From Ceratobasidium sp. AG-K (Eukaryota; Basidiomycota; Agaricomycetes; Cantharellales; Ceratobasidiaceae), in the NCBI GenBank assembly GCA_037039685.1, contig JAWNGF010000001.1, forward strand, positions 186,001 through 250,000: a DNA stretch of 64,000 nucleotides, written 5' to 3'. This document shows positions 6,006-55,976 of this stretch, one piece after another. The translations under genes were made by a program, and so were the position numbers. Below the pieces are notes generated by a model. That model searched no databases. It saw only the letters and a list, made by a program, of their open reading frames with translations, and was not told the DNA's origin. The number at the start of each line of letters is the position of its first letter. Position 1 is the first letter of the stretch.

Positions 6006-6248
6006 GGTCGCCAGAATCACGGTTTTGCGTTAACGTATGGCACTAGCGGGGCTATTGAATTGCCTACCATGCTTCAATCTGGTAGTGGGGTAAGCCAGCT
6101 ATGGTGCTACTGTATGGATTGTTGTGGTTCCACGAGCGAGCGCCAGCTGCTGCCTGGGTTCAGGGTCCTTCCCCTCGCTCCCGGATGACACGTGATATCC
6201 CATGGCTGGTAATGTAACGGCCTCCTCCTCCTCATCCCACCGCCGAAT

Positions 6249-22805: not shown

Positions 22806-25800
22806 CTATTCGTCCATGTCCTCAGCCTCCGACTCTGGCTCCGGCTCAGGCAGAGGTTCAACATATGCCAGTGTCTCTGAAGTTACCAGACTCATCTGGC
22901 GCAGTGATCCTCTATGAGCCATTCCATATACAGCAAAATTTTGTATCTCCTCACCATATTCGCGACGTAGGACGCGGTCGGACGAAGAGGTGGCTCCTGC
23001 GACCAACAACCTTTGAGCAATGACCACAGGATGTTGCCACTGATACTGCGTGGGGGAATCTGAGCCTCTGGTCGCTTTGGTATCCTCTTTTTGTTAACCA
23101 CAGCCGTCACAACCTGGACGTCGGCAAGTCCAGTGAACGGAGACTGGCCAGTGAATATTTCCTTGGAGGGAAAGACTTAGTTAGTTCGATCAGTGACCGG
23201 TTGTGCACCTTACAAGTATTGTCTATTCGTAAACAAAAAAGTAAGATCCTATCACAGCCTCGATAAAATTGGTTATAAACCTACCATGCCAAGCGCATAT
23301 ACGTCAGCGGGACGACTAAATTGGCTCGTCCCTTGGAGAATTTCAGGTGCCTACCGAATGTAGGAGTTAATTGTTGAAAGAAAATAGCACGAAGAAATAC
23401 ATACGGTCCATCGGAGCGAAAAGCTAGCCGCCGACGCTGTAGTCGTAAATGAGACCGCCGATTCCGCCAGACTCGCATTTCCAAAATCAGTCAGCATGGG
23501 AACACCACTATCCGAGATTAATACGTTGGCCTCTCCAAGAGTTAGCATATATGTCTAGCTCAAACAGTGCATTACTCACTCCTTTGAGGTCGCCGTGAAC
23601 CTTACGTATTGATTAGATGCTGACGAGGCAGCACAATTTTTAAAGCAGGCATCATATTAATACTCACAATATGACTGGCGTGGAGGTAAACCAGCCCTTT
23701 GCATACGTCGGCACTCTGACCGCAATCGCTGTGAGTTGCAGTAGGAGTTTTCAATAAGCCAGTTAGACACACCAGTAAGCAGCGGTTGGCTGACGGATTG
23801 TTGGCCAGATATGATATCAGATTTCCATTTGCAGCCCAGGGGGATACCATAGCGAGACCACCGCGAAACTCGACGAATCCTAAAAGGGGTGCGACATTTG
23901 GGTGGTTGCACTTGGACCAGGCATAAAGTTCTTTCGCTGCACGCTACCGGACAAAGCGTGAGTGTGCACGGTGAGGAAGATCCCGCCCACCTTTTGATAC
24001 TTTCCAGCTGAATGTCCATCAGTACTGATCAGCCTAATAGTCTTGATGGCCACATTGAGGCCATCATTGAGTGCGCCAGAGTATACATCGCCGAATCCGC
24101 CATTGCCGACAGGATACTCGGAGCACCGTGCGGCGTCGAGACGGGTTGTTAGATTGTTGCAACCCGAACCCACAAGTAGTGAGATGATTTCGGGCAATGA
24201 CTGTTATCATGACACGTGAAACAGCCGCACTGTTGGGATATAGCACTTACCAGGTGGCTCGTGACAACAGTATTGGAAACACGAGTACTTGTAGATGGGA
24301 CGTCAGGGGAATGAGAAGGAGGCTAAGAGAAATAATGTGGACAATGATGCGGAGAAGAAGGTCAGTATTGCTCGAGTGGTAGCCAATCCTACTCACCAGC
24401 TATGCCCGTGACATCACAGCCAGCGATGATCAGCCTTGCTCAAGTGGTGATCCATCCTACTCACCTCCTATACCCGCAACATTGTAACCAGCAAAGGTCA
24501 GCCTTGCTCGAGTGGTAATCCATCCTACTCACCGCCTATACCCGCGACGTCACAGCCGGAGGTGATCAGCCTTGCTCAAGTGGCAATCCATCCTACTCAC
24601 CTCCTATACCCGTGACATTGTAACCAGCGAAGGTCAGCCTTGCTCGAGTGGTAATCCATCCTACTCACCGCCTATACCCATGACGTCACAGCCGGAGATG
24701 ATCAGCCTTGCTCGAGTGGTAATCCATCCTACTCACCTGCTATACCCGGGACATTGTAACCAGTGAAAGTCAGCCTTGCTCAAGTGGTGGTCCATCCTAC
24801 TCACCTCCTATACCCATGACATTGTAATCAGCGAGGGTCAGGCTTGCTCGAGTGGTAATTCATCTTACTCACATGCTATACCCGCGACGCCACAGCCAGA
24901 GGTGATCAACCTTGCTCGAGTGTCAATCCATGCAACTCACCGACTATACCCGCGACATCACAGCCAGCATTGATCAGCATTGTTCAAGTGGCAATGTATC
25001 CTACTCACCCGCTATACCAGCAACATTGCAGTCAGCGATGATCAGCCTTGCTCGAGTGGTAGCCCATCCTACTCACCCGCTATAACCATGACGTTGCAGT
25101 CAGCGATGGTCAGCATTTGCTCGAGTGGTAGCCCATGCTACTCACCAGCTATACCCGCAACATCACAGCCAGTGATGATCACCCTTGCTCAAGTGGTGAT
25201 CCATCCTACTCACCTCCTATACCCGCAACATTGTAACCAGCGAAGGTCAGCCTTGCTCGAGTGGTAATCCATCCTACTCACCACCTATACCCGCGACGTC
25301 ACAGCCAGCGAGGGTCAGCCTTGCCCGAGTGGTAATCCATCCTACCCACAAGCTAAACCCGCAAAATTGTAATCGGTGAGGGTCAGGCTTGCTCAAGTGG
25401 TGATTCATCTTACTCACATACTATACCCGCAACGTCACAGCCAGCAATGATCAGCCTTGCTCAAGTGGTAGCCCATCCCACTCACTTGCTATAACCACGA
25501 CGTTCCAGCCAGCAATGATGACCCTTGCTCAAGTGTAAATACATCCTACTCACCGACTATACCCCCGACGTCACAGCCAGCAATGATCAGCCTTGATTGA
25601 GTGGTAATGTATCCTACTCACAAGCTGTACCCGCAACATCCGGCCAGCGATGATCAGCCTTGCTCAAGTGGTAATCCATCCTACTCACCTCCTATACCCG
25701 TGACATTGCAGTGAGCAATGATCAGCCTTACTCGATTGGTAGCCCATCCTACTCACCCGCTATACCCACGACGTCACAGCCAAAGATAATCAGCCTTGCT

Positions 25801-27726
25801 CAAGTGTCAATCCATCCTACTCACCTCCTATACCCGCGACATCACAGCCAGCGATGATCAGCCTTGCTTGGGTGGTAAACCATCCTACTCACCCGCTATA
25901 CCCGTCACAGCCAGAGATGATCAGCCTTGCTTGAGTGGTAATCCATCCTACTCACAAGCTGTACCCGCAACATCCAGCCAGCAATGATCAGCCTTGCTCA
26001 AGTGGTAATCCATCCTACTCACCTCCTATACCCGTGACATTGCAGTGAGCAATGATCAGCCTTACTCAATTGGTAGCCCATCCTACTCACCCGCTATACC
26101 CACGACGTCACAGCCAAAGATAATCAGCCTTGCTCGAGTGTCAATCCATCCTACTCACCTCCTATACCTGCGACATCACAGCCAGCGATGATCAGCCTTG
26201 CTCGGGTGGTAAACCATCCTACTCACCCGCTATACCCGTCACAGCCAGACACGATCAGCCTTGCTCAAGTGGTAGCCCATCCTACTCACCGCCTATACCC
26301 GCGACGTCACAGCCGGAGGTGATCAGCCTTGCTCAAGTGGCAATCCATCCTACTCACCGCCTATACCCGCAACGTCACAGCCAGATATGATCAGCCTTGC
26401 TCAAGTGGTAATCCATCCTACAAACCTCCTATACCCGCGACATCACAGCCCGCGATGATCAGCCTTGCTCAGGTGGTAAACCATCCTACTCACCCGCTAT
26501 ACCCGTCACAGCCAGACATGATCAGCCTTGCTCGAGTGGTAGCCCATCCTACTCACCGCCTATACCCGCGACGTCACAGCCGGAGGTGATCAGCCTTGCT
26601 CAAGTGGCAATCCATCCTACTCACCGCCTATACCTGCGACATCACAGCCAGATATGATCAGCCTTGCTCGAGTGGTAATCCATCCTACCCACCTCCTATA
26701 CCCGCAACATTGTATCCAGCAAAGGTCAGCATTGCTCAAGTGGTAGCCCATCCTACTCACCAGCTATACCCGTGACATCACAGCCAGCGATGATCAGCAT
26801 TGCTTGAGTGGTGATCCATCCTACTCACCTCCTATACCCGTGACATTGGAATCAGCGAGGGTCAGGCTTGCTCAAGTGGTAATTCATCTTACTCACATTC
26901 TATACCCGCGACGGCACAGCCAGCGATGATCAGCCTTGCTCGAGTGGTAATCCATCCTACTCACCTCCTATACCTGTGACGTTGCAGTCAGCAATGATCA
27001 GCCTTACTCGATTGGTAGCCCATCCTACTCACCCGCTATACCCGCGACATCACAGCCAGCAATGATCAGCCTTGCTCGAGTGGTAATCCATCCTACTCAC
27101 CTCCTATACCCGCAACGTCACAGCCAGAGATGATCAGCCTTGCTCGAGTGGTGATCCATCCTACTCACCAGCTATACCCATGACGTCACAGCCAGCAATG
27201 TTCAGCCTTGCTCGGGTGGTAGCCCATCCCACTCACCGTCTATACCTGCAACATCACAGCCAGCGATGATCAGCCTTGCTTGAGTGGTAATCCATCCTAC
27301 TCACATCCTATACCCGTGACGTTGCAGTCAGCAATGATCAGCCTTACTCGATTGGTAGCCCATCCTACTCACCCGCTATACCCGCGACGTCACAGCCAGC
27401 AATGATCAGCCTTGCTCAAGTGTCAATCCATCCTACTCACATTCTATACCCGTGACGTCACAGGCACAGATGATCAGCCTTGCTCAACTGGTAATCCATC
27501 CTACTCACTAACTGTACGCGGTGCACCATCTGTGAAGGTCAGCCATATTCAAGCAGTGCTGTGCCCTACGTACTTTCTACTTTCAGGACTAAAATCAGAA
27601 TATGTTAACCAATGAAATAGGAACAAATCTCACTAACCCCCTTTTTCTGTAAGGGATCATGTCAGACGTTCAGTACTTCGATTGGTACCTCTCGCTCACC
27701 CCCAAAGAGTGCGTGCCGAGTTGCAT
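22806..27726 (-). CDS. protein kinase K2 (TKL-like) with N-terminus read from 48 one-codon exons
   Basis: Exon 1 (27726-27700) encodes MQLGTHSLG and ends at GTGAGC. A 9-nt exon (27638-27646, KKG) and 48 three-base exons from 27576 to 24397 follow, then a 72-nt exon (PPSHSPDVPS...VVTSHL, about 24255-24326) and the kinase exon beginning SLPEIISLL. All joins are phase 0. The decoded micro-exon stretch includes LERENELEAAREAARERE and is Glu/Arg/Leu/Ala-rich, coiled-coil-like. Kinase motifs: GNGGFGDVYSG, NVAIK lysine, ELYAWSKCNHPNVAPLLGF, GLVYLHASHIV, HGDLKG, MLTDFGNAS, and a C-lobe with LLKGCWSQEPPLRPTA. The tail is acidic (EPEPESEAEDMDE), stop 22806-22808. The family acts as cytoplasmic Ser/Thr/Tyr kinases of unknown substrate. 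The coiled-coil reading suggests oligomerisation (inference). Confidence 0.8.
24361..27515 (-). repeat. 68-bp tandem array 2 (intron plus one codon per unit) inside K2
   Basis: About 46-47 units, mostly 68 bp, a few 63-64 bp. The minus strand has donor GTGAGTAGG, branch-like CTGAT, acceptor TATAG (or TACAG), a three-base slot, and the next donor. Rare variant donors are GTGGGT (25345, 26693) and GTTTGT (26425). The slot holds GAG, CGG, CTT/CTG/TTA, GCG, TCG, CAA/CAG, CAT, GTG, TAT, AAT, ACG and GAT, with no stop codon in any unit. The slot is the most variable part of an otherwise nearly constant repeat. Confidence 0.9.
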
Positions 27727-27970
27727 CGTTGCCAGAATCAAGGTTTTGCGTTAACGTATGGCGCTAGTGGGGTTATCGAATTGCCTACCATGCTTCAATC
27801 TGGTAGTGGGGTAAGCCAGCTATGGTGCTACTGTATGGATTGTTGTGGTTCCACGAGCGAGCGCTGGCCGCTGCCTGGGGTTCAGGGTCCTTCCCCTCGC
27901 TCCTGGATGACACGTGATATCCCATGTTTGGTAATGTAACGGCCTCTTCTTCCTCATCCCACCGCCGAAT

Positions 27971-38539: not shown

Positions 38540-41500
38540 TCAAGTGTCAGCAATGCCCCAAGTAGGTGCACTGTATTGACTTACTACATCCCTGACTTCG
38601 GTCGCACTCGGACGCTCCCGTACATTGCGCGACCAGCAGCTCACAAGTAGGGACCAAAGCATGTTTCCAAATAAACCAGGGGGTATGTGGGACTCTGGGC
38701 GAGGTGGGATCTTCCCCTGATTAACGATAACATGGTAAAGGACGTTGTACTCCGTCTCATGGTACGGGACTTCCCCTGTAAGAATTTCCTTTTGAATTCG
38801 AATAGACGGCGAGAGCGCCAACGTGTTAGATTATCGGTTTGTTTTGATCGGAATCCCCATACCAATATTGTCTACGCGCATTTTAATTTTTTCATCGGAT
38901 ACAAGTTGTCGAAATACACTCACCATGCCCAAGGAATATATATCCCCGGCAAAGCTTCGCACCGCTTCCTGCTTGATAATATCAGGAGGCTGCCTCGCGT
39001 GATTCCATTAGCATATTATGACAAATGTGCGAGAATTGACCCACAGTCCAACGTAGTGTCCCGATAGCGGAATGAGATGTTGTCGTTATTGGGAGCGAGC
39101 ATTTATCGAGGAATGCGTGTCCAAAATCGCCAATCATCGGTACGCCAGCCTCAGAAACCATTACATTATTCTATGTACCGTGTGAGCCCTATGTCTCGGA
39201 GAAGTTTCCATCACGTACTGCCTTCAAATCGCCGTGTACCTGCGGTTAGTTGATGTAAATTCTACAGTTGGTGATTTCCTTGATAAGACTGACCGTTCCA
39301 TTATCATGCAGATATACAAGGCCGTCGGACACCTGAGTACTCTAACCAAGTCGCGCATAGGTTCCCAGAGGTGGCCTCGCTTGGATGTGATTTATGGCTT
39401 ACCAAGCTGCACCTGTTGACCCCTGGATTGTCTTGAATGAATTCCTGCAAAGTTCCGTTAGTTGCCCAAGGGGATACCATTGCAACCTTTCCGCGAAACG
39501 TGGCAACCCCGAGAAGCCGCAGCACATTGGGATGCTTGCATTTTCGCCATGTGTAGAGTTCACGAGCGGCTTTCTGGTTTGGTAGCGATTAGCCGCATCC
39601 AGATGCCTGCATACATATATGCTAACCTTTAAGACGCTTTTCTCGTCCGAGCCAAGTTCGTCGCCAAACTTTAGAGTTTTAATGGCGACCTGGGTCCCAT
39701 CAAGAAGCCTTGCCTTAAAGACGTCTCCAAAAGCGCCGTGGCGAGAATCATTCCAGCAGCTCCTATCAATGCGAGCTGATATGTCATCACATCCATGTTC
39801 CGTGAGCAACTCGATAGTGGCAGAAACTCCCTTGAACCCCAACCGGAGTCAGGCGGTAGCACGAGGTGATCTAAGATTGCTCACCGTTATAGGAGAATCC
39901 TGAGTACTGTAGTATGACGCATCGGAATCAGAATCTAATGCCTCATTGCCCCCCTGGTCATGGCATTGAGATGCTGTGGGACTCTGGGGGACGGTCTATG
40001 GCATGCATAGGATCGCTAGTTCATAGACTTGCCTCTGGACCAAGGTCCTGTCAACCGCGCGATTAGAAAGGATGGCAATTTAATAACCCCCAAGCTTACC
40101 GTTGGGGATATGTGATCCTGATCATCCGATGATGGTTCTGATATGTTATCGCTCTGCAGTATTTCAATGTGAGTCTAAGGTTATAAATTGGGCGATGGGC
40201 GTGGTTCGTGGTACTTTAACCCACCATCTAGACCAAAAGTCGCCATGGAAATGACAGTCAGGTGTTATAGATACGCGCAGAATGTCTTGACATCGAGTTC
40301 AGCATGGTCTCTTATCAACATCGCCATGCGAGCTCACCAGAGTTTGGGCGGTCTCTTAAATGGTAGGACATACTTCCTGGGAATCGAGATGACGTGTCAT
40401 AAGTCTGTGCTGAGCACTGGAATGGGACTAATTTGACTCACTGTCATCTATAAGGGGGTCAGATCAAAGTAATTAACAAACATTTAGACGTACCAGCTAA
40501 ATAACCCGAGTGAGACAGTTTGATTAGGTTCATAAAACTACTACGTGAGAACGCACTCGCTGGAGCAAATTTTTCAAAGTTCCATTATTGTATCGAGGTT
40601 TTTGGAAGCCTATATTAGGACTTACAAGCTGTAGGAGAGAATTTGAGATGTTGTCATAGAGGTTCACCACATCAACCTACAGCCTGACGGTTGTGAAGTT
40701 TTCAGTACGTTGAGCAGCAGCTTTGTTCTGGCGAGGAGCACTGACGTTCTATCCATTGTGGTTTGAGCGTTAAGTCAAGTATCAAAGGTCTATCATAACC
40801 AGTGTCACTTACATACTGAAATGATGGGTTAAGTTCCTGGCTGCGGAGAGAATGCCAAGGGATGGTAGAAGCTCACCATCTGTGGTTGTTCATTGGCGTA
40901 TGAAGGGCTACTAGTTTTGTTTAATAATGTGCTCTACTCACAACCTTTTTTTGGATCAGATTCAACGCAAGTGTTGGCAGAGGTTCAGAGAAGATGACCT
41001 ACGGCCTTCATTTGCAAAATATATAGTAACGATGCTAGAATGCCCCTCGGTATCGGGAAAATCGAGCTACTTACCGGCTATACGTAAGAGCCATAGATTC
41101 AGATGGTTAGTATACGAGTTTGCATGATCAAAATATGAAGCTTTACCATCTAAATTTACGAAACCGTTCCAGTGATTATGATCGTCGGTAGCAATAGTGG
41201 AATAGCTCACTCCCTAGATTTTGTGCAATTATATGCATAGAACATGTTCGGTTAAATTGAAACAGACCTCCTCAGGATTCTAAGTGAGCAATGGCAAATG
41301 TCGGGGTGATTGGGTCATCCTAGGAACTAGTTTTTATACTCACGCGCTAATGGAGCAGGTATGGTGGGTGTCCCCTTGCTTAAATGTGCTAAATGAATAA
41401 TTCACCTCCTATAATCATGCCAGAGGTAACCAGAAATCATAAATAGGCTTGCCCGGCAGGTAAGTGCCATCTCACCTCCTGATATTAGTGGATAGATTAT

Positions 41501-43049
41501 TGTAATTGCATTACGACCCCCAAAATTTTATTTGCTTACTTGAGGCTTTTCCGTGTAGTTGCGTATTCAGCCAGCCGATACTGAGGACTTTTTCATCCCT
41601 ACTTACAAGCTATTAAAGGGTTTATCAATCGGTGTCTAAAGGGGTTGGCACGAAGCATGGTCTGATTCTTTACTCACGTCCTGTTCAAGACATTGGTCAA
41701 TAGACCAACACCTCACTCTGGCTTTCAGTAACAAATACCTCCTATATAACTATTGCTCAAGGCAATCGAAAGCGGGCCGTTAGAGAACATACATGCTGCC
41801 AAAGTCTCTATTAAGAGAATTCCGCAGTACACTTCTCGAGACATTACTTACATCCTGGTTACGAAGTTTTACTAATGTCCTACTGCGTAAACTGCCCAGG
41901 TACTCACCAACTAGGTTATTAGTTTCCCCCATTGATTAAGCTCAAAACTCCACGTGATAGTACTATACTGACCACCTTTTGGGGTGTCAGCCTATCAGAA
42001 TTGGAGTACTCGTTGATTTGTACTAACCAACTACAGTTCACGAGGTTTTATTACCGGATGCAAACAGGATGTAAGATCACGTCGCACTTACATTCTATAT
42101 TATTGAAATGAGTTCCACCTTGCCTGATCAGTGAAATGCCTGTTTGCGGCTCACCAACTGTCGCCGTCAATTCATGAGGTTCAAAGGTTATGGTTTGAAG
42201 CTGGGGCAAACACTTACCATCTATCAATATGAGAGTAAGAACCCTTGACAAGCTGTACCCAAAACGTGTCAAAGCCTCGAATACGTACCCTCTGTTCAAA
42301 AAGAAAAAGCTCGATATTAATCACCGTACCTGCGGATAACTCACCAACTGTATGAGGCAACAATGTCAGTATGATACAGCGTATGCACTGGTTAAATAAT
42401 TACTCACTCCCTTGATCAAAACGAGTGTAGGTGACATTGTTGATTCAATCGACGTGTTCTCATTGAAATGAATCCAGGCTCACAAACTATAGCGTAACAA
42501 AGGAAAGAAAATCAGACCTGCAAGGTATTGCGGGAAGGAAATTAAAACTTACTCTCTGATTTTGCCGTCATATATTGTGGCACTAAGCATCAACCCAATA
42601 GATAACCGTGGACCTTACCAACTGAGGTTCCGGAAACACATTGTAAATCGACTTGAAAGTTTGCAGCGATCAGCTGGTACGCACCACCTTGAAACCACAT
42701 CATCCTCAACAGGTCAGATCATGGTGGCCAGCTGCAGCATTGCGGGAGTGGTTGCTTACAAGCTACATATTGTCAGGAGCGCAAAATTGAGGACTGCTTT
42801 GCACAGTAAAGTTCCTACTAACTCTTGTCTACATGAAATTCGTCGGTCAGGTTAAAAAAAATCAATTTTGAAGCATAAGGGGACGCACACCCTATAAGTT
42901 GGAATATAGGATCAAGGAAGAATATATAAGCAGATTGAAACATAAGACAGACGCAATGTGGCTCACCGGGTCAGGCTGTGGACGGATTCATTCAATAATT
43001 AAAGGCCCTCACACTACATTAACAAACCAGTTAGAGGTAAACTCACCAT
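38540..43049 (-). CDS. protein kinase K3 (TKL-like) with micro-exon-encoded N-terminus
   Basis: ATG 43047-43049 directly abuts a GTGAGT donor. A 9-nt exon (42967-42975, PDP) and about 40 small exons down to 40442 follow, nearly all 3 nt with some of 6 nt, then GAA (40374-40376) and a 15-nt exon (TAQTL). The decoded text includes LRFGLRMLNLVLDHED and EREGMPAVMYNALRL. The kinase domain has RHGAFGDVFKA, QVAIK, HPNVLRLLGV-type text, HGDLKA, GVPMIGDFGHAF, and a C-lobe ending SCWSRNVRERPSATEV. Stop at 38540. The introns (about 55-75 nt) show no repeat similarity to each other, unlike in K1 and K2. Exons between 40335 and 39850 are less certain. Confidence 0.72.
40442..43049 (-). other. diverged micro-exon array of K3
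   Basis: About 42 AG-(3, 6 or 9 nt)-GT cassettes at spacing near 65 bp. Examples of exon positions: 42889-42891 GGT, 42760-42762 CTT, 42685-42687 GTG, 42619-42621 TTG, 42484-42486 TTT, 41973-41975 GTG, 41540-41545 CCTCAA, 41075-41077 CCG, 40746-40748 AAC, 40494-40496 CTG, 40442-40447 ATGACA. Donors are mostly GTGAGT, GTAAGT or GTCAGT. No cassette I read contains a stop codon. Confidence 0.78.
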
Positions 43050-45164
43050 TCTGGTGTCTTGGTGATCGACGAAATTCTTCTACCACGGGAGTACCGGGAG
43101 TATTGATGAACTTGGAGCAGACTGGGTGGATATAAATACATATCGCCTGTGCAGCTCCCGGCCATTAGTGGCTAAGCAGGATCGATGAACTGCATAAAAA
43201 GCGAGGTTCCTTGCAGATCAAAGATTTTTTTGCGTTAGATCAATGGGATCCATAAACATATGGAAGGAGACCAAGGACCACGAGTGCAAACTCAATATAC
43301 CGGAGCGTTGGGTCACTTGAATGGAGCAATCGAGACCTCGTCTCGCCTGTTCAGTCAATCACACTCACCATTTCACTGCACGTGGAGGAGAAAATCCAAT
43401 TTCCTTCACAATACTCTTGGAAGCAGATCCTAAGCTATTTCATTTTTTTGCCAGGAGCTGATGCAATCTCATTTGTAGTTTGAGAATCGAGTACTGGATT
43501 GGCGCGTGACCATCCGTTATGGGCCACTGCGCTGCGCCGTCAATGGTTCGGGGATAGGGTTCCAACTAAACAAGAGACAGCGCAAGGCCGGAACGGCTGG
43601 TACAGAACTCCTGGTTAGTTGCCCCAGTGAGTTCGGAGATGCGCGGCGCTTCGAATCGGCAAAATTTAAACTAGTCTCTAAGCCAACCCCCCGGTGGAGT
43701 CAGTCCAGCAGCCCATCCCGAGAGTCAGGTGTCAATGCTTGAGCAAGAGGCGCACGGAGATGCACCAAGGAAGTCTCCAGGATCAACGCACGGGAGATTC
43801 CAGGCATTTTGATCACAGTGCTTAGACACATAAGGGTCCAGAATTAGCACAAAGTGGGCCGCGCACGAGAAGATGAGCGGTTACGCGTGAAATGCTATGC
43901 GCAATCTTCTAATACTTCATGCGTGTAGGGATTATCATTGGACCCACCCCCAGTATCGCAAATTGCCAACGATTGTGGAATCTCTGGCCTTGACGATTTG
44001 ATTGAACAGTCAACATGGTACAAATGCGTGGGGCCACTCGCCGTGTTAAGATAACAAGCCTTAATGCAAGTGGATTTTAGGTAGTATCGAAGACGGGGAG
44101 ACGGAAAAGGGGTCCATACATACACATACACGGACAAGGCTGGCCACGCGCGACGCCTGCGGCTCTCGCGCGCATACAGGTTAGCTAATCGCCACGTAAT
44201 GCGTACCATTACAGACAGTATCGCACGCTGGGCGCCGATGTGCGTCGTGCAATCCTATTTATGTGTACTGCAGCTCTGCTATGTATAATCTATATTGGTA
44301 CGGTATGCACGACGGTCCAAAGGTGTTGAAGTCGTCTGTAAAAAAGGGACGGACCTAATCGGCACTAATCGGCACTAATAACAATTGTCGCAACAGTCAG
44401 CGAGCCTAATTAGGGCCGATTAGTGCCGATTAGCGCTGGTTAGCCGGACCTTTTTTCAGACGGAAGGCTCGTTTGCAAGCGCCCGGCGCAAAAGAATCAC
44501 TCCGCACGCGGAAGCGAGGTTTGTTATACGCCTGCACGTGCTGTTGTGGAGGCCTTTGCCGTGTGAGTCATTGATTTCCATGTGCGGCGCCGGTTTGATT
44601 CTATATAGGCCTTTAGCCGTGGAATTATGTATTTATATGCTACGTGTAAAGCCTTGTTTATACAGTAATCCTTACACGCAAAGTGCCACTTGCATGCACT
44701 TCGCCACGCCTGTACCCTTTGTTCAGCTCCAAATTAGTAGCTGAAAACGCAGAAAGGATGTGCATACGAGAACCATCCACCTCGTGCGCAAGCTCAAAAC
44801 TTGAGTATTGGGCCTATTTGACTTAAATTTCGCTTACCCACTGCTTACACACCGACCTATCATCTCGAACTTGCGCGTCAACGGTGATTTTCGGCGCGTC
44901 GATGAGTCGCGAGACCCATTGCTGAATCTTGTGTCCTGAACTGCCTCTGCATCGTGACTTGAGAGTGACGCTAAGTGTAATAATTCAGGCGTGTTTACCA
45001 GACATTTTAAGTCAACATTTGGTCATTAATTAATACAGTCTTGCTATCCTGCCAACCTCAGAGATACCATTGCATCTACAGAACTACGTGCCCGTCACAA
45101 CTATTTTTTGGACCATTTCATGGAGGGTCTACACCCCAAAGACCTTCGTTGACAGAAAAGTGAT
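43050..45164. other. intergenic region between K3 and K4
   Basis: About 2.1 kb without a supportable gene. It contains the palindromic element at 44334-44461 and presumably the K3 promoter. Confidence 0.45.
44334..44461. repeat. palindromic element with inverted ends GTCTG(T)AAAAAAGG
   Basis: The 128-bp segment begins GTCTGTAAAAAAGGGACGGA and ends with the imperfect reverse complement ...CCGGACCTTTTTTCAGAC. Both arms carry the repeated motif TAATCGGCACTAATCGGC in opposite orientation. It would fold into a long hairpin and resembles a small MITE. No clear target duplication was seen. Confidence 0.55.
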
Positions 45165-48100
45165 CTAATCAGATCTTAGTTGTTTTTTCCAAGTCGGTAG
45201 TGTACTCGGACTCACAGCCTCCATAACCTCCACTGCGCTTGGACGCTCTTGTACGTTGCGTGACCAACAGGTCACAAGAAGAGTCCACATAAGGTTTCTG
45301 GGCATACTTGGAGGTATATGCGACTTTGGACGACCTGGCAGCTTTCCTTGATCGACAACGACGCCAAATAGTGCAGCGTCAGTCACATCAAAGTACGGGA
45401 TTTTTCCAGTCATTATTTCCTTTTAAATTTTAAAGTAAGCATTGCGTTGCTCGTAGTCCTGATGTGAGTATGTTGTACCAATATAGTCTAGTGGTTCAAA
45501 CCTCATTTATATACCATTAGGTTAAGCTACATAATTGACTTACCATTCCCAAGGCATACACATCTCCTGGAAAGCCTCGCTTAGCTTGCCGTTGGAGGAT
45601 TTCTGGAGCCTATGTATTCCACAATCAGTAGTGTAAGATCACTCGTTGGTAGAATTCTGCATACAGTCCATCGGATAGATCCCGGCCCTTTATGCGGTGC
45701 TGTGATTAGCGGCAGAGATGAATTACTCGGAAACGAATGTCCGAAGTCGGCAATCATTGGTATTCCGTCTTCACTGACCACAATATTGTCCTACCTACTA
45801 GTTAGCAATTTAAATAGCGGTGGCTTGAAAACCTACAGCTTTCAAGTCTCCATGTACCTGGAGCCAGATCCTCTTGTTAGCCATGGATAAGCATAGGTCT
45901 GTAATACATCTCACCGTTCCCTGTCCATGCAAGTATGCAACCCCTGCGCAAACCTGGATGATCTACCAGGAAATTAAATTACATAGTACACCCGATGCAT
46001 GCAAAGCTACCTACTATGTCCAGTCGGTTTACCAGTGGGTTCCTCCGGACGTATGCTTGAAGACTTCCGTTAGCAGCCCAAGGTGATACCATACCTATTC
46101 TTCCGCGAAAATTGGCAATGCCAAGGAGCTTCAACACATTTGGGTGATTACATTTCTGCCATATGTGAAGCTCCCGAGCTGCTCTCTATAGCAATGTTAG
46201 TTTAGCCGGAAAGATAGAGCGCTTACATGCCTTCACCTGTAGGACATCATAGATCTCATTTTTCCCAAGCCTCTCAAGAATTATTGGGGTTTTCACGGCA
46301 ACCGCAGCACCGTCAAGGAGCGTAGCCTTGTAGATGTCGCCACATCCCCCAGCTTGAATGTTCTCATCGTCATGCCGATCAACTTGTGGTGAAAGATCTT
46401 TGCAACCATGTTTTGTGAGTAGCAAAATGAGGTCAGATACCGACTGTACCACGTAAGGGTGACATTCTAATCCAACTTTGGTCCCACACTCACCGCTAGT
46501 TTTGGCACATCTGTCTCGTTTGCCGTTTTGAACGAGGCTTCGGAGCCGCAATCAGAGTCGCAATCAGAGTCGCCGTTCTGTGCCTGAGTCTGTCATTAAA
46601 TAAGACGATTGTCAGTTACCTGTGATATTCTATGGTATTTATGATCTATTATACACCCACTGTAATGAGCCCACATGTAGATAGTTCTGGCGTTATAGTC
46701 GATTAAAATTTCTTAAATAATTACATACCCGCTATTACTTCTTTCAGAAGCGATTTGACTAGTTTGTGATGCAAAAGCACATACCTTCTGTAGATTGATA
46801 TATCAAGCCTCATCATTAGCTCCTGCGAAAAAATCTGAGCACATGCCTTTTGCAAGTACTTCTGCATTGCGGAGGATTGTTAGTATCTGCTTTGGTACCT
46901 TTCGACACACACACACCTCCTGCAAAAAGCACCATGTAGCAGGAAAAACACTGGTGAGCCATTTTTCACTACTTACGTGCTATTTCAATCATGAAGCGGA
47001 GGAATTTAGTGGAGTTGGTGGTTGAAACATAGAGACTTGCTTTCTGTGGCCGAATATGTACTTGGTCAGGTTTCTCAAGACTCTCTGCCAGTAAACTACT
47101 GGAGAGTTCAACTTACAGACTGGCAACATTTTTCCACCAATTAGTATGTATACGCGGTTACTCTGGCTGATTTGAACTGACATCCTTGTAGTAGATCGTA
47201 AATCAATGTAGCCACAGTAACCGGTCAACCGGTTGGGACACTGTAGAAACTTACCTCCTGTTCAGGTTCCAAAGGACTATAGATCAGTCAGGCCGATCAT
47301 ACCCCATTTCGTGGCACCTACAACCTGTTTATTTTGTTATCCATTAGTTCAATGCTAGCGTGCAACTATATTAGTCTTACCACCTGCAGCCAGAAACTGA
47401 ACTAAGTATATCTAGTTGCAGCGTAATTTACCCACCCGCTATAATTGTGGTTATAATAACGTATGAAGAACTAAATCACCACACTATGAGAGTCCACCCA
47501 CCAGCTACATAGTGGTAAATCTGTCCAAAGGGATACATTACCCTTTAAGCGAGCACTCTCACCCACTAGATTGGAGGTACCCCACATCAATTGCCATTAT
47601 GTAGCTACTGATGTCAGTTTACTTACGGCCTGTCCAATAGGTAAGTCAAACTAGTTGCTTCACCGATCACAGCAACAGTTTGCGTCGTCACGTACATGCT
47701 GGGGATATGATTTCAGTACCCACGCATACAGAAAACCTAGCGTGAACACAACATACAATCTACCCCTGATAATCAGCATCGGTACCTATACTCTGAGGAA
47801 TGCAGTAATCCCACCATCTAGTTTCAAAGTCAGTAATTATTGTCATTTCTCAGCGGAAACAACTGATAAGTACTGTCTGTGCACCACGCAACCCTGGAAG
47901 TTAGAATTCAACTGCACATATTAATCAGATCGATAAGCGGACCTGCTATGGAAGATAAAAGTAGTTAGAAACATGTCTAGGGATACCTAACACTAGACAT
48001 TGAACACAACCTACCGGCGCAAAACGAAACCCCTCCAAGCACTTTAAGATAAACTCAAAGGTTCCTGGGGCCCTCCGGCTTACCCTCTGGCGTAGGTTGT

Positions 48101-50087
48101 GTTAGTAGGGTGATAGCTGTAGCTGAACTCCGAAACTAACTTTCTATTGATCGAAGTTCCGCCCGGATGTGAGCCTCGGTCATCTTAATGCTCCATGATT
48201 AGGTGGACACGTACGCTCTGTAAATTGTCTCGTTAGGTCAGGGATTTCTGTAACAACCGCAAAAGTGTAGCTACACAGTGCTTTGGCACTCTTGGTTTCA
48301 CACAATCCCAGCCGCTGGTACGGGAATACACAAGGTAGGAGATCCGACTCACTTCCTAGATTTTGAGGCAGGAGCCATTATCGGAAATCGTAAATCAACT
48401 AATTGCCACTCTCCGGCGCGTACCGTCTGTGATGAGGGCAACTTGTTTAAGCTGTAGAGTTCAAAACTATGGCAGGCTGCTCGTACCTCGGCCTTTGATA
48501 TGCTACAGTCAGGTAGAGCTAGACGGATTACATGCAACAAACGTGTTGCAAACGAAGTATTAGCCGTATGCTGAGGACATAGTGTAACCAAGACATTGGG
48601 TGAAAAGTGCTTATCTTCTACGATGTCGGAAGTCAAATAGAAACTTCAACACTGTCCCAAAATGGTAACAAATACAGTAATCACCATCTAGATTGGCGTT
48701 GGAATCTATGGTTGAGGGACATTGGTAACACACACCTCCTACCGATGGCCATCGCAAGTTAGGAGTGATTTGATCGGCTTGCCAGACTTATACTCACATG
48801 CTATCCACACATTAAGTAAATCGAGTGGCCGCACCCGTAACTGGACGGAGATCTGGGACTTACTGCCTACAACCTTGGCATCAATTCCAGATGCTTATGT
48901 CGCTGAGGAGAACCTTTGAATAGTTCACTGACCGCCTTAGGATTTGAGCATCAGAATGGGGGTCATCAGCAATTAACGCATTGTTGACAACGTACAATCT
49001 ACATGGAGTTTAGGAGCTGACTTTAGAACCGCTGATTCTAAGGGAGTTGCGGCACAAATGATTTGCTGTACAAATCACTTTGCGGGATGTGCCTAAGATC
49101 GGAACTTACACCCTAATCACAATTGTAGAACATTTTAAACGTCAATGAGGCATGCGTTTGTTTCCAACTCACAAACTATGCGCATACAGAACGCCATGTG
49201 AGAGCATGAATCCCCTAGGAATGAACGCAACCTACCATCTGGTTGATTATAGAGCGGAGTCCCACTATGAGTTTAGGAACATGTGGTTGTACGTCCCCCA
49301 CACGCACCTTCTATTATAGACCAATGTACCTCAGTAACGCGATGGTGTGGGAAGTTCATACCACCTACCAACTTGTATGGTGTTGAGTTCGACATGTCAC
49401 CCAAGCGCTTAATGTCGCACTTTATAGCTTTTACTTACCATCTATATGAGGGTATTTTTATAACAAATACAAGTGGATGAGTAACTTGAACATGAATCTT
49501 GCTCAGCGGACCGTGACTCACGGCCTACCAACCAACCCAAGCATTCTGAGCCCTACACCCAACGATCATAATGGAAAATGAACATACAACCTAAGTTGGC
49601 CCGTCCGTGGTCGGGAATCAGAATGCGGGATCTACAAATAAGGGGATTTTGCCTCACAAACTACGTTTTATAAAAGGCGCCGAGAGGGTTAGTCTCTTCG
49701 ATGAAGGCTAGTAGGGAAGGACTTGCCGCCTACGTCCGTCGGAGCGCGTGTCCATGTTACTTAGTTACGGAATTGAGGCATACAATATTGAAGCTTACGG
49801 GCTGCAAGGTAGCTCATTTGCTGTTTGGGCACTTTATGCATTGAGAAAAGCTCACTGACATTCCTCTATATAAGGATCGGCAAATGAGCCTTCATGGTTG
49901 GGCAATTAATGTCATCAGTTACACATACCGGCTATAACATGATTTACGAGATTCAGGAGAGGAGTCATCAGCTGTTCCTGTATTCTCGCACATATGCAGA
50001 CGCACTCGACCCAATCCCTCTCCAGAAGACTCCAGTGCGGGGGGTATCAGATCCCGCTAGCAAGGATATTGAACGATCACCTACCAT
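45165..50087 (-). CDS. protein kinase K4 (TKL-like) with micro-exon-encoded N-terminus, possibly decaying
   Basis: ATG 50085-50087 abuts a GTAGGT donor. About 45 small exons follow to 46725. Decoded text includes FVAMLKMFG and, after an 18-nt exon GFRFAP (near 48010-48027), QTMIHAWLRVVEDSQHE, which aligns with K3. Kinase motifs: AGGCGDIYKA (Gly-loop with Cys), AVAVK, HGDLKA, PMIADFGHSF, and a C-lobe VTCWSRNVQERPSAVEV. Stop at 45165. Possible damage: a TGA-containing six-base exon (49072-49077), a donor reading ATAAGC at about 48613, no clear second exon between 50085 and 49920, and a GC donor at 49720. It may be a young pseudogene or use other splice choices. Confidence 0.6.
46725..50087 (-). 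other. diverged micro-exon array of K4
   Basis: About 45 AG-(3, 6 or 18 nt)-GT cassettes. Examples: 47873-47875 reads ACA, and 47815-47817 ATG, 47757-47759 ATT, 47696-47698 CAT, 47627-47629 GCC and 47563-47565 TGG follow in order. One exon near 49724 is followed by GCAAGT, a GC-AG intron donor. Gaps of two unit lengths near 48555-48620 lack a good cassette. Confidence 0.68.
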
Positions 50088-51455
50088 TTCAAGGAATTTT
50101 ATGAGAAGTACGTCTTAGGAACACACTCAGTACAGGACAGCAAGTGGGGGCTTATATCTGCAGGAGGCTGCCACGACTGGCTACGTGGTGTGGGGTAGCT
50201 TTAAGTGGGCGCTAGAAAATATGGAATACGCTTGCGTGCTGTGGATCACGAGCGCACATTCCTTGACTATCCACACCAAGACTTTCAAAGCCCCTCTTCC
50301 CTGTGAAACGATGGTTTCTACCATGTTACTGTGACTCATGTGCTCAACCACGAATCAAGGGCAAAAATGACTCTACCAAAGGCTCTGGGATAAGCTGTGC
50401 AGTGCTTCTCGCTGAGAGGAAATTTCGCTTCCAATATGCTACATTCAAGTTCAATCTCCGATTTTTGTTTTCCCGTGCATCCGGTGGATGGGAGGCCCAG
50501 CTTGCTGTAGGAAATGACCAGAACCAGGAATGGCTATAAGAAAACTGTTTGGGTTCTGGAGACTTCGGAGGGAGGGGGCACGCAATTGTTGTGCTTTCGG
50601 AGCCCAGTGATGCTCGCGGTGTGAAAGCATGTGAGGTCTTCCAACCCCATAGGGACTTTAGAAGCCGGACGTTAACTTCTCCCTCCGAAGAGGTGGTACG
50701 CTTCATCGAGGAGATTATGCAACTGGAGGACCTAGTGTGTACCTCCTGTAAGGAGACAGGGCGGCGGAAAGAAATATTTCTGATGCATGACGATAGACAA
50801 CAGGAGAATTCATTTATAGAACGTGTATGCATAGTTGGTGTTGTTTTACGTGTCATTGGATGGAATGAGGGCTCTGCACTGGAGTCTGCGGAGGTGCACA
50901 GCCCAGCCATGTCCGAAAGCGTAGCGAGTAGCTGTAAGCGCTTCCCTAAAGCACTTCGGGTCTAACGCGGATTTTCACCTCCGGTGGCTGGTTCGGTTCG
51001 AATGCGCGTATATATGCCAATTGATGTAACATGCATCCGAGGACGGGCATACCTGGGAATCCCCACGCAAACCGATAGCAAAGGGGGCGAGCCGTTGGTA
51101 CATGAACTATGTCAGGCCATGTGGCTATGACCAAGGCGTGCCGACCTCGTGCGCTACAGGACCGTGGCGAGCAATTTATTTCGCGCTTATGCAGACTGCT
51201 GTGCAAACCACCAGTTGCGCCTTCGCTCCATCTTTCGCGAGTTAGGATATTCGCTCTGTCATCTACGCCAGCTGTGACCCGAAACAGTCTCCATCTCACA
51301 TCTGCCTAACAATACAGCGCAGTGCACAATGAATTAATGAGATTAGTCTTCGACATGATTTCTCATTGCTTGAAAGTTGAATCTACATATCCGCATCACG
51401 TAACTGTTTCGGAGATCAATACTACCGAGATGAAACGTTTGCATGCGAAGCACCG
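50088..51455. other. intergenic region between K4 and K5
   Basis: Overlapping open frames occur on both strands at 50344-50965 (up to 188 codons), but neither has recognisable domain text and they overlap each other, so I do not call a gene. It presumably contains the K4 promoter. Confidence 0.4.
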
Positions 51456-54400
51456 TCATTTTCCCTTGAGATTGTCGAGAGAAAACATCTTCATCTGACC
51501 AATTTATCAATGTTAACATGACTGTCACGGTTCAGGAGTCTAAACCTACCATCTCTCCAACCTCCATTGCGCTTGGGCGCTCCTGCAGACTCCGTGACCA
51601 GCAGCTTTCAAGCAAGGACCAAAGCATATTCCCAAATAACCCAAAGGGTATGTATACCTCCGGGCGAGGTGGAAATTCTCCCCGGTTAACAATCATGCCA
51701 TAAAGCCGAACCTCATCAATTCCGCTGTATGGGACTTCTCCTCCAATAATCTCCTAGTGAAACGAGTCAGGAGTAAGATCACAGCTTCGACAAACTTCGC
51801 GAGCACATACCAGAATCGTCTGCAGATGCGATATTACGGTCAGCCACCAGGAAAGCGAACTAATCGGTATAGTGTGTATACCATGCCTAAGGAATAAACA
51901 TCTCCAGGGTAGCTCCGTCCCATCTCTTGCTTTATGATCTCGGGTGCCTGTGCCGTAGTACGGCGTTAGAAACCGATAAACCCGTGAAAACACTCAACCC
52001 ACCGTCCAACGGAGAGCTCCCATAGATGAGTGAGACACTGCGGTTATCGGGACAGCGCATTTGCCAAGAAATGCGTGTCCGAAGTCGCCAATCATTGCGA
52101 CACCAGACTCAGAAACCACGACATTAATCTAATAATTAGACGAGCCCTGTACACGAAGATCAAGTGCTTACCGCCTTCAAATCGCCGTGTACCTGCATTG
52201 ATGGAATGTATCAGCTGACTTTCGTTGCCACAAAGTGCCAGGTGGCGGAAATATATCTACCGTCTGGTTTTCGTGCAAATATACCAGGCCGTTGCAGACT
52301 TGCGTACTCTGTTGGGACTGGTGAGCTACGCGCTTTACTGTGTGAAGCTCATGATTAGGGCGAACTGACTAAGCCACACCGATCGGCACTGGGATTATTT
52401 TGAATGTATGCCTGTAATGTTCCATTAGCCATCCAAGGTGATACCATTGCAACCCTTTCGCGAAACATGGCAACACCGAGAAGCGGTAGCACGTTCGGGT
52501 GCCGACATTTCATCCAAGTATGAACCTCGCGGGCAACTTTCTGTATTTGCTCTCAGATTGATTGGCGCTCATTGACTGTAGAGCATATACTCACTTGCAG
52601 ATCGCTCTTTTCATTCTTCCCAGGTTCAACGCCAATGATTGGGGTCTTTATCGCCACTACTGAACCGTCGAGGAGTCTTGCCTTGTGAATGTGGCCAAAA
52701 GCGCCACGTCGGATATTGCTCGGGCCGCCTTTGACGATACGGGATGACACGTCCTCACATCCGTGCTCTACCAGTAGCTTAATTATCGCCGGGGCCGCCT
52801 AAGAGTACAATCGCAATCAGGGGATCCAGGGATTTGAGCATTAAATGTGGAAAACCATACCACTGAATCAGAGGTAAATTCACTCTGAGCACTTTGAAAA
52901 GAAGCATTGGACTCAGAATCGGAGATGGTATCTTCCTCTTGGTCACGAGCGTCTTGTGCCGTAGGAACCTGAGAGGCAATGTGAAGCGCGCTAGAATAGT
53001 TGTGTGTATCCATCTTGCCTCTGAAACAGTATCCTGCCGACCAAAATGTTAGAGCAGGTCCTAGTTCGCGAGCCCAGGTCGCACTCACCGACTGGGTTGA
53101 ATGTGTTTGATTGGCCAGGCTCTCTTGCATCTGAGAATAGTCCTATGAAGCGTTCGTCGACGCGTCAAGTTACATGTATATTTGTCACTCTTTATCCATC
53201 ATTTTACTCACCGCCTAGGAAATACAGGTTTGCTATCACCCAGCGGGCATATACACGACTTATTCAAATACGTTTAACCAACCTCCAATTCCTAATGGAA
53301 TATATCGTAACCCAGAGGATAAGCGAGACCGATTTGAGTATCTGATCACGTGCACCCACCTCCTAGCCGTAAAAACCATCGTGGGAAAAGCCATGACTGA
53401 GTGTCCATTACTGTAGTGAACCAAAGCAGCTTACAAACTACAGTGCGGTCAATCCATGCCCCTCGAAGTTGAACTTTTAACGCACCGTCTAAGATAATTC
53501 GGGTCTCCTCGTTTGATTCAGTCACGTTGAGTATAATCATTGCAGACCTACCCGCTGTGATCAAAATTGACTCAGTCCTCCAATCTTTGGTAAGCCTATG
53601 TAGGCACTTACGATCTATTAAAGCATGAATTAAAGGGCGGCCTGCTATGTCGCTACTGCCAACTCACGAACTAAAAGTCCGAAATTCGTGGCCGGTTAAG
53701 TATCCGGACGCGGATTTTACGCAAGTACACGCTCACTCCCTATCCATCAGTCAATTATAAATAGGTAGGCATGTGCTCGATGCGCGCCCGATACCGTACT
53801 CACGTTCTATAAAGATCGCAAATTGTACGGAATAGTCACTTATCACCTTCTCCAACTCTTTCCACTTACAATCTTGTTTAAAATACGAGTACATAAACAG
53901 TATATGCAATGCGGAGATTAAAGCGACTCACAACCTTCATGTTCGCGCGGTGCACCGTTGGTGATGACTTCTACTTCGGAGTACAGAGAGCCTGCCTACC
54001 TCCTGCACCAGTGTACGAACCAGAATTCAGTAAATTAAGTCATAAAACCGGCTCTACATGAATTTGAAATCTCACAATCTGGACCTGTGTCATCCAACCA
54101 AGGCGACTTTAGGAAGCGCATAGGCGGCAGGGCTTTGGTCACATACCCCCTGTATTTTGGAACCTTCAGTCGATGGTATGGGTACTTGATTTAATAACCA
54201 ACGCTTAGCCCATCCTAAGATGGTTGTCAATACATCCAAGGCGATTATGCGATTTCGCAGGTAACCATTCACTCACATCCTAAGTTTATAAGACAAGCGG
54301 ATAAGCCTCACTACCACCAGATTGTCAAATCGGTAGCATACCCCTACGGCAGTGTTATATTGATTAGTAGACTCCCAAATGATCTTGTCTAGCATTTATG

Positions 54401-55976
54401 TTGTAACCCACCTCCTACCAAAGAAACATCTATCAGCTCGACAATCCGCTAGCAATAATCTCAATGCTCACTTCAGACTTATACGTGTGATTGCACGGTC
54501 AGCCAGTGGTTACTCGACTAGGCTTGTAAGTACATACAGCCTACAAGCAAAACTTGGTAAGTCACATTTCCAGGGGATTCGTCGTTCGATAATTCTTCGC
54601 TTACGTCCTATACCAGTGAAAATGCGGTTAACCCGTCAAACTCTCGAACTTGGCTCGTTAAGATACAGTATTACCATCTACAAAAGCTTCATAAGGCGCC
54701 ACAAGTTGCGAGTGAACAGAAATCATGGTGCGCGACTTACTTGCTACAAAACATATCGTTCTAGGAGTTTCAGCTTTAAAAACTGAAGGTCGCCACTCAC
54801 ATCCTGGTCGTCAAGGTTCGCATCTGCAAAATTGCGTACCCTACATAAGCACTCACCAACTGGGATTTTGCGTGCGCGCTAGGTAAGCTTGCCTTCGTAC
54901 GCTTTGTTTGACCCACTGACCATCTATGAACGTGTCAGTCTAGTCTCAATTATGAGAGCGGTGCTCAAACTCACGAGCTACGGTGTCAAATACCCCCGTC
55001 ATCATCCACACCCATACCGTGGAATGTAGTGCCACTTACATTCTGTTTCAATTGAAACGCGATTTGAGCAAGCGAATCCAGAAGAATCTTGGTCCAGGCT
55101 CACCGCCTAGAGGCACACAATTTGAAGCATGATCAACATCTGATATATAAGTAGGGTATTTACCGCCTATCATTTCCGCAAAGGCGGTCGCTGGATTAGC
55201 CATATGTCATATATTGGACTTTCGAGATATTTACCCTCTATCAAATGCAAAAGGGTTGATAAAGTTCAATAGCATTTCCGGATGCTGCTCACCAACTATC
55301 AAGTCACGCGCACGTCACTTGAGCCAGTCCTCCCTACGTTACCAAGATGATTACTCACCCCCTTGGTCAAAGTACCCAAGGTTCAGGAATCAAACGACCA
55401 TTTGTTATACGACTGAGACTCACCATCTGAGACACCACGAGAGATAGTGATTAGAAGAGCTGTTCGATTGGCAATGCGAGACGAACTTACCCTCTGTTCG
55501 CAGAAGTTAGTGCCAAGACAGCTTACGCACAGAAAGGTGTAATTTCTCGCCAAACGTAGCAACCTACCAACTGGGATCATTCAAAGGCCTGGATTCAGCT
55601 CAGAAGCGTGTGGCGTCGCACCAGTACTCACAATCTATAATACAAAATAGTGGATTGGTCAGCTCTCAATTAATAGTGGTTGTCTGTATGTTGACTACTT
55701 ACAAACTGTGGTTCATGGAATGGTTAATATCGAACAACCTATCATACCAGGTGTATCTTACTGACCCTTTGCTACAAGAAATGGTTAGCAAAGTACCAAG
55801 GTGTTGCGTCATTCTACGAGAGACATACCTTCTGCGAGTTGGGCCGCATCATAGACACACAGCGAGTTAGTAATTCGTGATAAAATTACACCTCTCTACG
55901 CTAACTCACCGGACTGGGCTGCAAAGTTCGCCCATTGGGATATATCGGTGAATATATCATGAGCTAGGCTCACCAT
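51456..55976 (-). CDS. protein kinase K5 (TKL-like) with micro-exon-encoded N-terminus
   Basis: ATG 55974-55976 abuts a GTGAGC donor. A 9-nt exon (PSP, 55912-55920) and about 42 small exons follow, mainly 3 nt. Decoded text includes LRMGLRAANLMLDQMD, 10 of 16 residues identical to K3. The kinase part has RRGAFGHIHKA, VVAIK, HGDLKA, and a C-lobe with GEFPPRPEVYIPFGLFGNML and SCWSRSLQERPSAMEV. A last short exon MKMFSLDNLKGK with TGA at 51456-51458 is my best guess for the end. Two exons of the array appear to be 2 nt and 1 nt long and together restore the frame (see findings). Confidence 0.7.
53089..55976 (-). other. diverged micro-exon array of K5
   Basis: AG-NNN-GT cassettes every 50-80 bp, for example near 55697 TTT, 55622 ATT, 55560 TTG, 55485 AGG, 55420 ATG, 55345 GGG, 55285 TTG, 55225 AGG, 55155 GCG, 55095 GCG, 55030 AAT, 54970 CTC, 54910 ATG, 54850 TTG, 54795 GAT, 54735 CAA, 54670 ATG, 54600 GAC. 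A nine-base exon (GAATTGGAG) near 53278 uses donor GTTGGT. Confidence 0.76.

Follow-up and report, generated by a model that had tools for sequence, protein, structure and literature searches.

What, if anything, do regularly spaced slots of three bases encode at the start of a fungal kinase gene? The question is raised by a 64,000-nt stretch of the Ceratobasidium sp. AG-K genome (assembly GCA_037039685.1, contig JAWNGF010000001.1, positions 186,001 to 250,000 of the forward strand), here called the window. It carries five kinase genes, K1 to K5, all on its minus strand, and each begins with an array of three-base slots separated by GT..AG intervals. In K3 and K5, the first ~50 codons very probably occupy ordered slots, most holding one codon and a few holding two to four, that are separated by predicted introns of mostly 46-78 nt, with matching slot orders in the two genes; splicing would leave one residue per exon and likely join these residues in frame to the kinase. 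Arrays of this type are likely frame-neutral coding arrays that supply one residue per unit. Their splicing and translation are predictions from sequence.

The arrays are recognizable by their splice signals. On the minus strand of K3, K4, and K5, AG-NNN-GT cassettes recur every ~50-78 nt, with GTRAGT-like donors; among 50 intervals of these genes chosen for Y at -3, R at +3, G at +5, and non-G at +6, T stands at +6 in 38 and A at +4 in 31. An earlier reading made from the letters alone (the sequence-only reading) had described such a cassette every ~65 bp in K3 and K5, arrays that begin ATG|GT, and a second exon of 9 nt (PDP in K3, PSP in K5). All three descriptions held: the recurrence is real at the spacing just given, K4 (ATG at 50087) begins in the same way and has a similar array, and the 9-nt exons are recovered by a splice model. 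This unconstrained model combined donor, acceptor, branch-like motif, intron length, and an exon-length prior; it had no stop rule, did not consult the partner gene, and used weights set by hand after inspection of these same arrays. In a chain search, the real arrays scored 45.2 for K2, 23.2 for K5, and 19.6 for K3, and no chain reached 3 in a Markov-shuffled control (280,680 bp, one shuffle, one strand). K3 and K5 have 42-44 predicted GT..AG introns, mostly 46-78 nt long. After the start codon, 36 of 41 exons in K3 and 36 of 42 in K5 are 3 nt long; because the prior favours 3-nt exons, this surplus is partly built in. Independent of the prior are the even spacing, the chains absent from shuffled sequence, and the agreement between K3 and K5.

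That agreement extends to single exons. The K5 array (53212..55976, minus strand) opens with the ATG alone (55976) and the 9-nt exon PSP (55918), and holds 36 one-codon exons together with exons of 6, 6, 12, and 9 nt; its decoded peptide is MPSPKQRFILRMGLRAANLMLDQMDASEE.DDGLSGIEVINGFIRTFEELEA. The K3 array (40374..43049, minus strand) likewise opens with the ATG alone (43049) and PDP (42975), holds 36 one-codon exons and exons of 6, 6, 12, and 6 nt, and decodes to MPDPGTRLVLRFGLRMLNLVLDHEDLPQEERNPEEGMPAVMYNALRLMTE, its last exons varying by model. In the unconstrained model, the best K3 chain from ATG 43049 has 42 introns of 46-75 nt, is stop-free, and reads M PDP G TR L V L R F G L R M L N L V L D H E D L PQ E E R NPEE G M P A V M Y N A L R L MT E; the K5 chain from ATG 55976 reads M PSP K QR F I L R M G L R A A N L M L D Q M D A SE E, a 2-nt exon, D, DGLS, and then G I E V I N G F I R T F E ELE A. 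Exon lengths run 3,9,3,6,3x19,6,3,3,3,12... in K3 and 3,9,3,6,3x19,6,3,2,3,12... in K5: exons 1-25, 27, and 28 are equal in length, including those of 9, 6, 6, and 12 nt at the same ordinals, and exon 26 has 3 versus 2 nt.

Residues agree in the same register. Over exons 2-28 minus exon 26 (33 codons), 14 of 33 residues are identical and the BLOSUM62 sum is 65, a value reached in none of 200,000 shuffles of slot order (maximum 46); one-codon pairs considered alone give 11 of 22 identical residues and a sum of 50, again with 0/200,000 shuffles as high. Sliding one array against the other by a single slot destroys the match (-24 and -30). The sequence-only reading had compared decoded 16-mers, identical at 10 of 16 positions, and had proposed shuffled cassette orders as a check on chance; the identity is confirmed, and the shuffles refute a chance reading. 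Single splice motifs are indeed short and common; the probability that such motifs are spaced by chance is nevertheless practically negligible, given that shuffled sequence yields no chain at score 3 and shuffled order no peptide match. The arrays of K3 and K5 are most plausibly sisters, matched intron by intron, whose codons appear to have outlasted their introns.

The introns themselves have nearly lost their resemblance. It had been claimed that the K3 and K5 introns resemble neither each other nor the 68-bp repeat of the window; this stands for the most part, except that paired K3/K5 introns retain a faint collinear similarity, seen in a length-adjusted order permutation of alignment scores (0/100,000) and giving no excess of plain identity over aligned columns (0.69 versus 0.72 for offset pairs). 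Intron similarity within aged arrays is weak (z 1.9 in K3 and 4.8 in K5, against letter shuffles that break the branch motif). Profiles of the 68-bp introns and of the introns of a 112-bp repeat found elsewhere in the genome gave nothing clearly above shuffled controls when run against the other arrays (68-bp best E 0.1 versus 0.4), so descent of the aged arrays from 68- or 112-bp units is unsupported. Since slot order and content are conserved in register and introns are nearly without resemblance, selection on the one-codon exons, as the sequence-only reading had proposed, is the supported and best explanation of the slot match.

Several features of the slots bear on this explanation. The 24 codons that differ between K3 and K5 are, taken together, conservative for amino acids (P 0.0068), synonymous change alone shows no significant excess (P 0.11, 0.26), and the second codon position is best kept (22/33 versus 8.9 in shuffles). 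Stops are rare: 1 of 382 one-codon slots in 16 arrays, a count that leaves out the close copies L007, L010, and L017, and L032 (L numbers denote regions elsewhere in the genome). In seven aged arrays, 0 of 200 slots are stops against 7.4 expected (P 5.5e-4, assuming independent slots). Between near-identical aged copies, slot bases are unchanged (0/54 in L006/L007 and 0/126 in L012/L032), with 30/1158 and 32/3479 intron bases changed, respectively; between L006 and L007, a 12-nt exon shows a difference at a third codon position. The L009, L010, and L017 copies are too alike to tell (slots 0/48 twice, introns 1/1091 and 0/1090). A comparison of slot with intron substitution, suggested earlier in the form of dN/dS, thus came out in the expected direction and fell short of significance (~2.6 slot changes expected by hand, P ~0.08).

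Frame can be followed from array to linker. Frame-aware models, in which stops are barred and the chain must end in frame with the linker, were found for all four window genes tried (K2, K3, K4, and K5), in phase 0 throughout to the linker; in-frame arrival, since the model requires it, indicates a possibility only, and K2 arrives in phase 0 in the unconstrained model too. Predicted introns and one-codon exons (start codon counted) number 42 and 37 in K5, 44 and 37 in K3, 46 and 43 in K4, and 51 and 50 in K2. The introns of K3 and K5 span 46-78 nt in stop-unaware models and 46-132 nt in frame-aware ones, and the models diverge at the end of the K3 array, midway through K4, and over the earliest K2 exons. 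The K5 linker (52860..53142, right end approximate, minus strand) is a single open frame in phase 0 with the array and reads DYSQMQESLANQTHSTQ...TAQDARDQEE...; kinase exons follow at 51535..52800 (minus strand; PK_Tyr_Ser-Thr / Pkinase). In K3, linker and kinase exons lie at 38543..39995 (minus strand). Queried as joined exons minus the catalytic-loop exon, both kinases score above the curated Pfam cut-off: K3 with 87.1 bits for PF00069 and 85.4 for PF07714, K5 with 69.4 and 80.7.

Slots might instead be kept for splicing or RNA structure, the array being a non-coding splice or delay element. Their third position is rich in G (98/200 in aged arrays), as a 5' splice consensus would favour. An order shuffle, however, fixes composition, yet the K3-K5 match needs the exact register; stops are depleted, the linker frame can be reached, and it is the second codon position that is best conserved. 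A non-coding role is accordingly improbable.

A number of observations weigh against a translated array joined to the kinase. In the unconstrained model, K1 and K2 receive a 57-nt second exon with a stop, and K4 receives long exons with stops, part of K4 resisting modelling. The L006 model crosses two exons that are not multiples of three. Exon 26 of K5 (54342..54343, minus strand) has 2 nt as assembled, the others being multiples of three, and is therefore skipped by the frame-aware model; K3 has GAG at that ordinal. The models cover the array to the linker, and introns between linker and kinase lie outside them. The K4 array is weakly similar to K5: in four comparisons of K4 peptides, K5 was the best partner (163/5000 shuffles as good), and both comparisons with K3 were at chance. 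When restricted to the 14 one-codon exons, the conservative-change test is borderline (P 0.060), and the copy-to-copy slot test is not significant alone because so few changes are expected. Because the introns of K3 and K5 retain some similarity, simple common descent could account for a share of the slot identity. Six-frame queries with the decoded K3, K2, and L012 peptides found no contiguous relative in the genome, an empty result uninformative alone, and K3 residues 1-82 gave eight candidates in a protein collection, none at E<=10; peptide homology consequently rests solely on the arrays.

Some of these irregularities would also fit arrays that are decaying remains without a current product: the 2-nt exon of K5, the second-exon stops of K1 and K2 under the unconstrained model, the refractory stretches of K4, and, in K1, a slot at 5314-5312 (minus strand) that reads TAG, the sole stop among the 382. 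K1 may be broken, or the exon holding TAG may be skipped. Decay has a slight chance at most: the K3 array is open throughout in the unconstrained model, aged slots are stop-free, and they are unchanged between copies.

Younger arrays indicate how such a structure could arise. The 68-bp tandem repeats of the window are the K1 and K2 arrays, and a tandem-repeat search lists none across the K3, K4, and K5 arrays. The young array of K2 (24397..27791, minus strand) consists of 68-bp units (a 65-nt intron plus a codon) with 47 one-codon slots and no stops, decoded as ...KLNRDTLERENELEAAREAARERELRERELSQYLVELRRSHEQAEAEL; its exons just after the ATG are model-dependent (one model places a stop-bearing 57-nt exon there, the other small exons). 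K1 (4484..6070, minus strand) has 68-bp units with 20 one-codon slots. By mean alignment score, L006 (0.018) and L014 (-0.026) stand closer to the K2 introns than the other arrays do (-0.065 or lower). Between standard-length units of the 112-bp arrays L011, L026, L027, and L028, divergence is 2.2-4.9% in the 109-nt intron and 58-65% in the slots. The ratio of slot to intron divergence, computed from standard-length units, is 30 in L011 (n=20), 24 in L026 (n=34), 14 in L027 (n=21), 12 in L028 (n=15), 5.8 in K1 (n=17), and 3.2 in K2 (n=36).

Unit number changes as well. L027 and L028 are identical at 1295 of 1300 aligned flanking bases, yet they have 24 versus 17 slots, reading YGELYRVRLYREYVYVEEYRYRYR and YGEYYRVRRGEYRYRYR, with one irregular unit in each. 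Flanks so nearly identical beside differing slot numbers imply that units come and go, as a rule one residue each. Within the last 10 nt of the 109-nt intron in L011 and L026-L031, slots associate with a few variants, mainly TATGACTTTAG and TACGAGATTAG/TACGAGAATAG, the latter two accompanying slots TAT, GAT, GTT, and CGG. Near 4441 in L011, one 112-bp unit has no acceptor AG (..TTTATGTACGT), and its slot would be skipped for that reason.

The same arrays allow an opposite account, in which introns spread between the codons of a pre-existing protein (introner-like insertion, or homogenization by conversion), so that slots are old and identical introns new. Unit pairs with identical introns often flank different slots (62/85 in L026, 20/30 in L011, 2/4 each in L027 and L028, and 2/3 in K2), and incomplete saturation would account for exons of 6, 9, and 12 nt. 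Against it, the differing unit numbers of L027 and L028 are what unit duplication predicts; the repeats do not behave as a dispersed introner would, all 59 listed matches of the 68-bp unit falling within the window and those of the 112-bp unit in nine clusters, six of them near kinases; and the six-frame search found no uninterrupted form of the decoded peptides (K3, K2, and L012) in this genome. We regard intron spread as a doubtful alternative, though one to be taken seriously.

For a coding array, a stepwise mechanism can be outlined. Each unit pairs a GT..AG interval with a codon, and the start codon by itself makes up the first modelled exon. The intervals would be spliced by intron definition, probably in order, because a 3-nt exon is unlikely to bind splice factors on both sides at once. 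Units are gained and lost, as L027 and L028 display apart from their irregular units and as K3 and K5 may once have done; because each unit holds one codon, exchange would add or remove exactly one residue without shifting the frame, although neither 68 nor 112 bp is a multiple of three. In young arrays the slots are far more divergent than the introns, and this diversification may reflect selection together with unit shuffling. Once array turnover stops, introns would drift and purifying selection would hold the codons, giving the state of K3 and K5. The last step is the least sure: the segment could be a fast-changing recognition or partner-binding handle of the kinase. Taken as a whole, a codon-at-a-time diversity generator, in which the minisatellite unit is intron plus codon and unequal exchange or exon skipping alters the N-terminal handle by single residues with the frame kept, possibly for self/nonself or partner recognition, can be put forward only tentatively. 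Alternative inclusion could even yield a vast in-frame protein set from one K3-like gene, because slots are in phase 0 and hold one codon.

Within the window, a K3 kinase query recovers all five genes. The K4 array (46657..50087, minus strand) has ~41 one-codon exons and is in part refractory (long exons with stops, stop-unaware model); its linker and kinase exons (45168..46589, minus strand) contain VHGDLK and DFG. HGDLK and DFG are both read in K4 exons, and DFG also in K3 and K5. Kinase exons lie at 22895..24203 in K2 and 2941..4316 in K1, both on the minus strand. The kinases presumably belong to the tyrosine-kinase-like (TKL) group. Among protein relatives, the best match has 56% identity, and Rhizoctonia solani and Ceratobasidium proteins, the best from named organisms, have 35-39%, in keeping with a genome from that family. 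R. solani AG8 is reportedly rich in tyrosine protein kinase signalling (PMC4014442). Between the K3 and K4 genes, window positions 44330-44470 hold inverted copies of a AATCGGCACTAAT-type sequence, by eye a small inverted-repeat element.

Beyond the window, the K3 kinase query has at least 159 matches in the genome, some as equal-score pairs. Twenty regions were taken beside related kinases near the top of the match list, and 8 of them have arrays with five or more links (L006, L007, L009, L010, L011, L012, L014, and L017; among these, L006 and L009 have close copies in L007, L010, and L017). In regions from a general kinase search, such arrays occur in 0 of 5. L011 is a 112-bp minisatellite. 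Its unit has at least 128 matches in nine clusters, L011's included (unit match counts are lower bounds for the 68-bp unit too). Seven of the nine were examined, L011 among them, and the six others carry arrays of 37, 24, 17, 5, 4, and 3 slots. For six of the nine clusters, a kinase match is listed at a distance of ~1.5-2 kb, and the other three, all on contig C5, have none among the matches listed.

Some of these regions show further peculiarities. L012 (minus strand) is an aged array at 3498-7660 of its sense strand, with many ~100-nt introns and several TGG (W) codons (T W T W Q G Y I ...), and shares T-W-T-W and Y-I with the start of L011. At 6900-9500 of L006 lies a neighbouring kinase gene in which no array was detected; larger open frames stand upstream in its place, and to the eye these may be MATH-like. 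On contigs C8, C3, C4, and C6, equal-score kinase matches are paired within a contig, inverted and mirrored in position (e.g. C8 ~620 kb), as if from inverted duplications or two joined haplotypes.

If spliced as predicted, these genes represent a gene structure at its limit: tens of successive exons of one amino acid. Joining dozens of 3-nt exons would then be within reach of the spliceosome, a tandem repeat would be frame-neutral whatever its length when splicing leaves one codon per unit, and gene finders may overlook the N-terminal segments of a kinase family. Arrays of differing apparent age in one genome also make intron multiplication within coding sequence testable. No array of one-codon exons was found among the top matches of the literature searched, most subscription journals lying outside its coverage.

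Known systems share single traits with the arrays. Introner elements are near-identical introns dispersed over many unrelated genes; near-identity is common to both, but the identical introns found here stay in tandem arrays, separated from each other by single codons, and most lie next to genes of one kinase family. TAL effector repeats combine a constant repeat with a hypervariable short slot per unit; in that they are alike, but the protein is unrelated and TAL repeats are fully translated. Micro-exon genes come closer in exon size. Aphid bicycle genes have many tiny exons, with internal exons almost all in phase 2 and more than 100 microexons in one gene (PMC9168663), and schistosome micro-exon genes (MEGs) have exons down to 3 bp, introns up to 5 kbp, and a secreted product (PMC10526429). 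They resemble the arrays in their numerous tiny exons (which in bicycle genes mostly share a phase), in the divergence of their proteins, and in a structure better conserved than sequence. The arrays differ in exons mostly of exactly one codon, introns mostly of 46-78 or ~109 nt, young arrays that are tandem minisatellites with a hypervariable codon, and a kinase product. Their exons are in phase 0, not phase 2, in the K2, K3, K4, and K5 models, and where MEGs have long introns, those of K3 and K5 reach 132 nt at most and a kinase domain follows the array.

Isolated microexons of 1 nt and 3 nt are described in plants (PMC8831610) and Drosophila (PMC7392893), and two 3-nt exons in the fungal Dactylellina lipS (PMC5639578). 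The size is alike, also in a fungus, but in the passages seen there are one or two such exons per gene, rather than tens in succession. The closest working analogue is found in fungal NLR repeat domains, for which near-identical repeats, repeat-number polymorphism, certain hypervariable codons, and exchange within a gene family are reported, with PKinase among the domains annotated in fungal NLRs (PMC4986451). K3 and K5 leave no room for a NOD (NACHT/NB-ARC) domain between array and kinase (~0.4-0.5 kb), and whereas the whole repeat is translated in NLRs, here splicing would leave just one codon of each unit. With slot/intron divergence ratios up to 30 and 24 versus 17 slots in near-identical copies, the arrays would work like fungal NLR repeats rather than belong to them.

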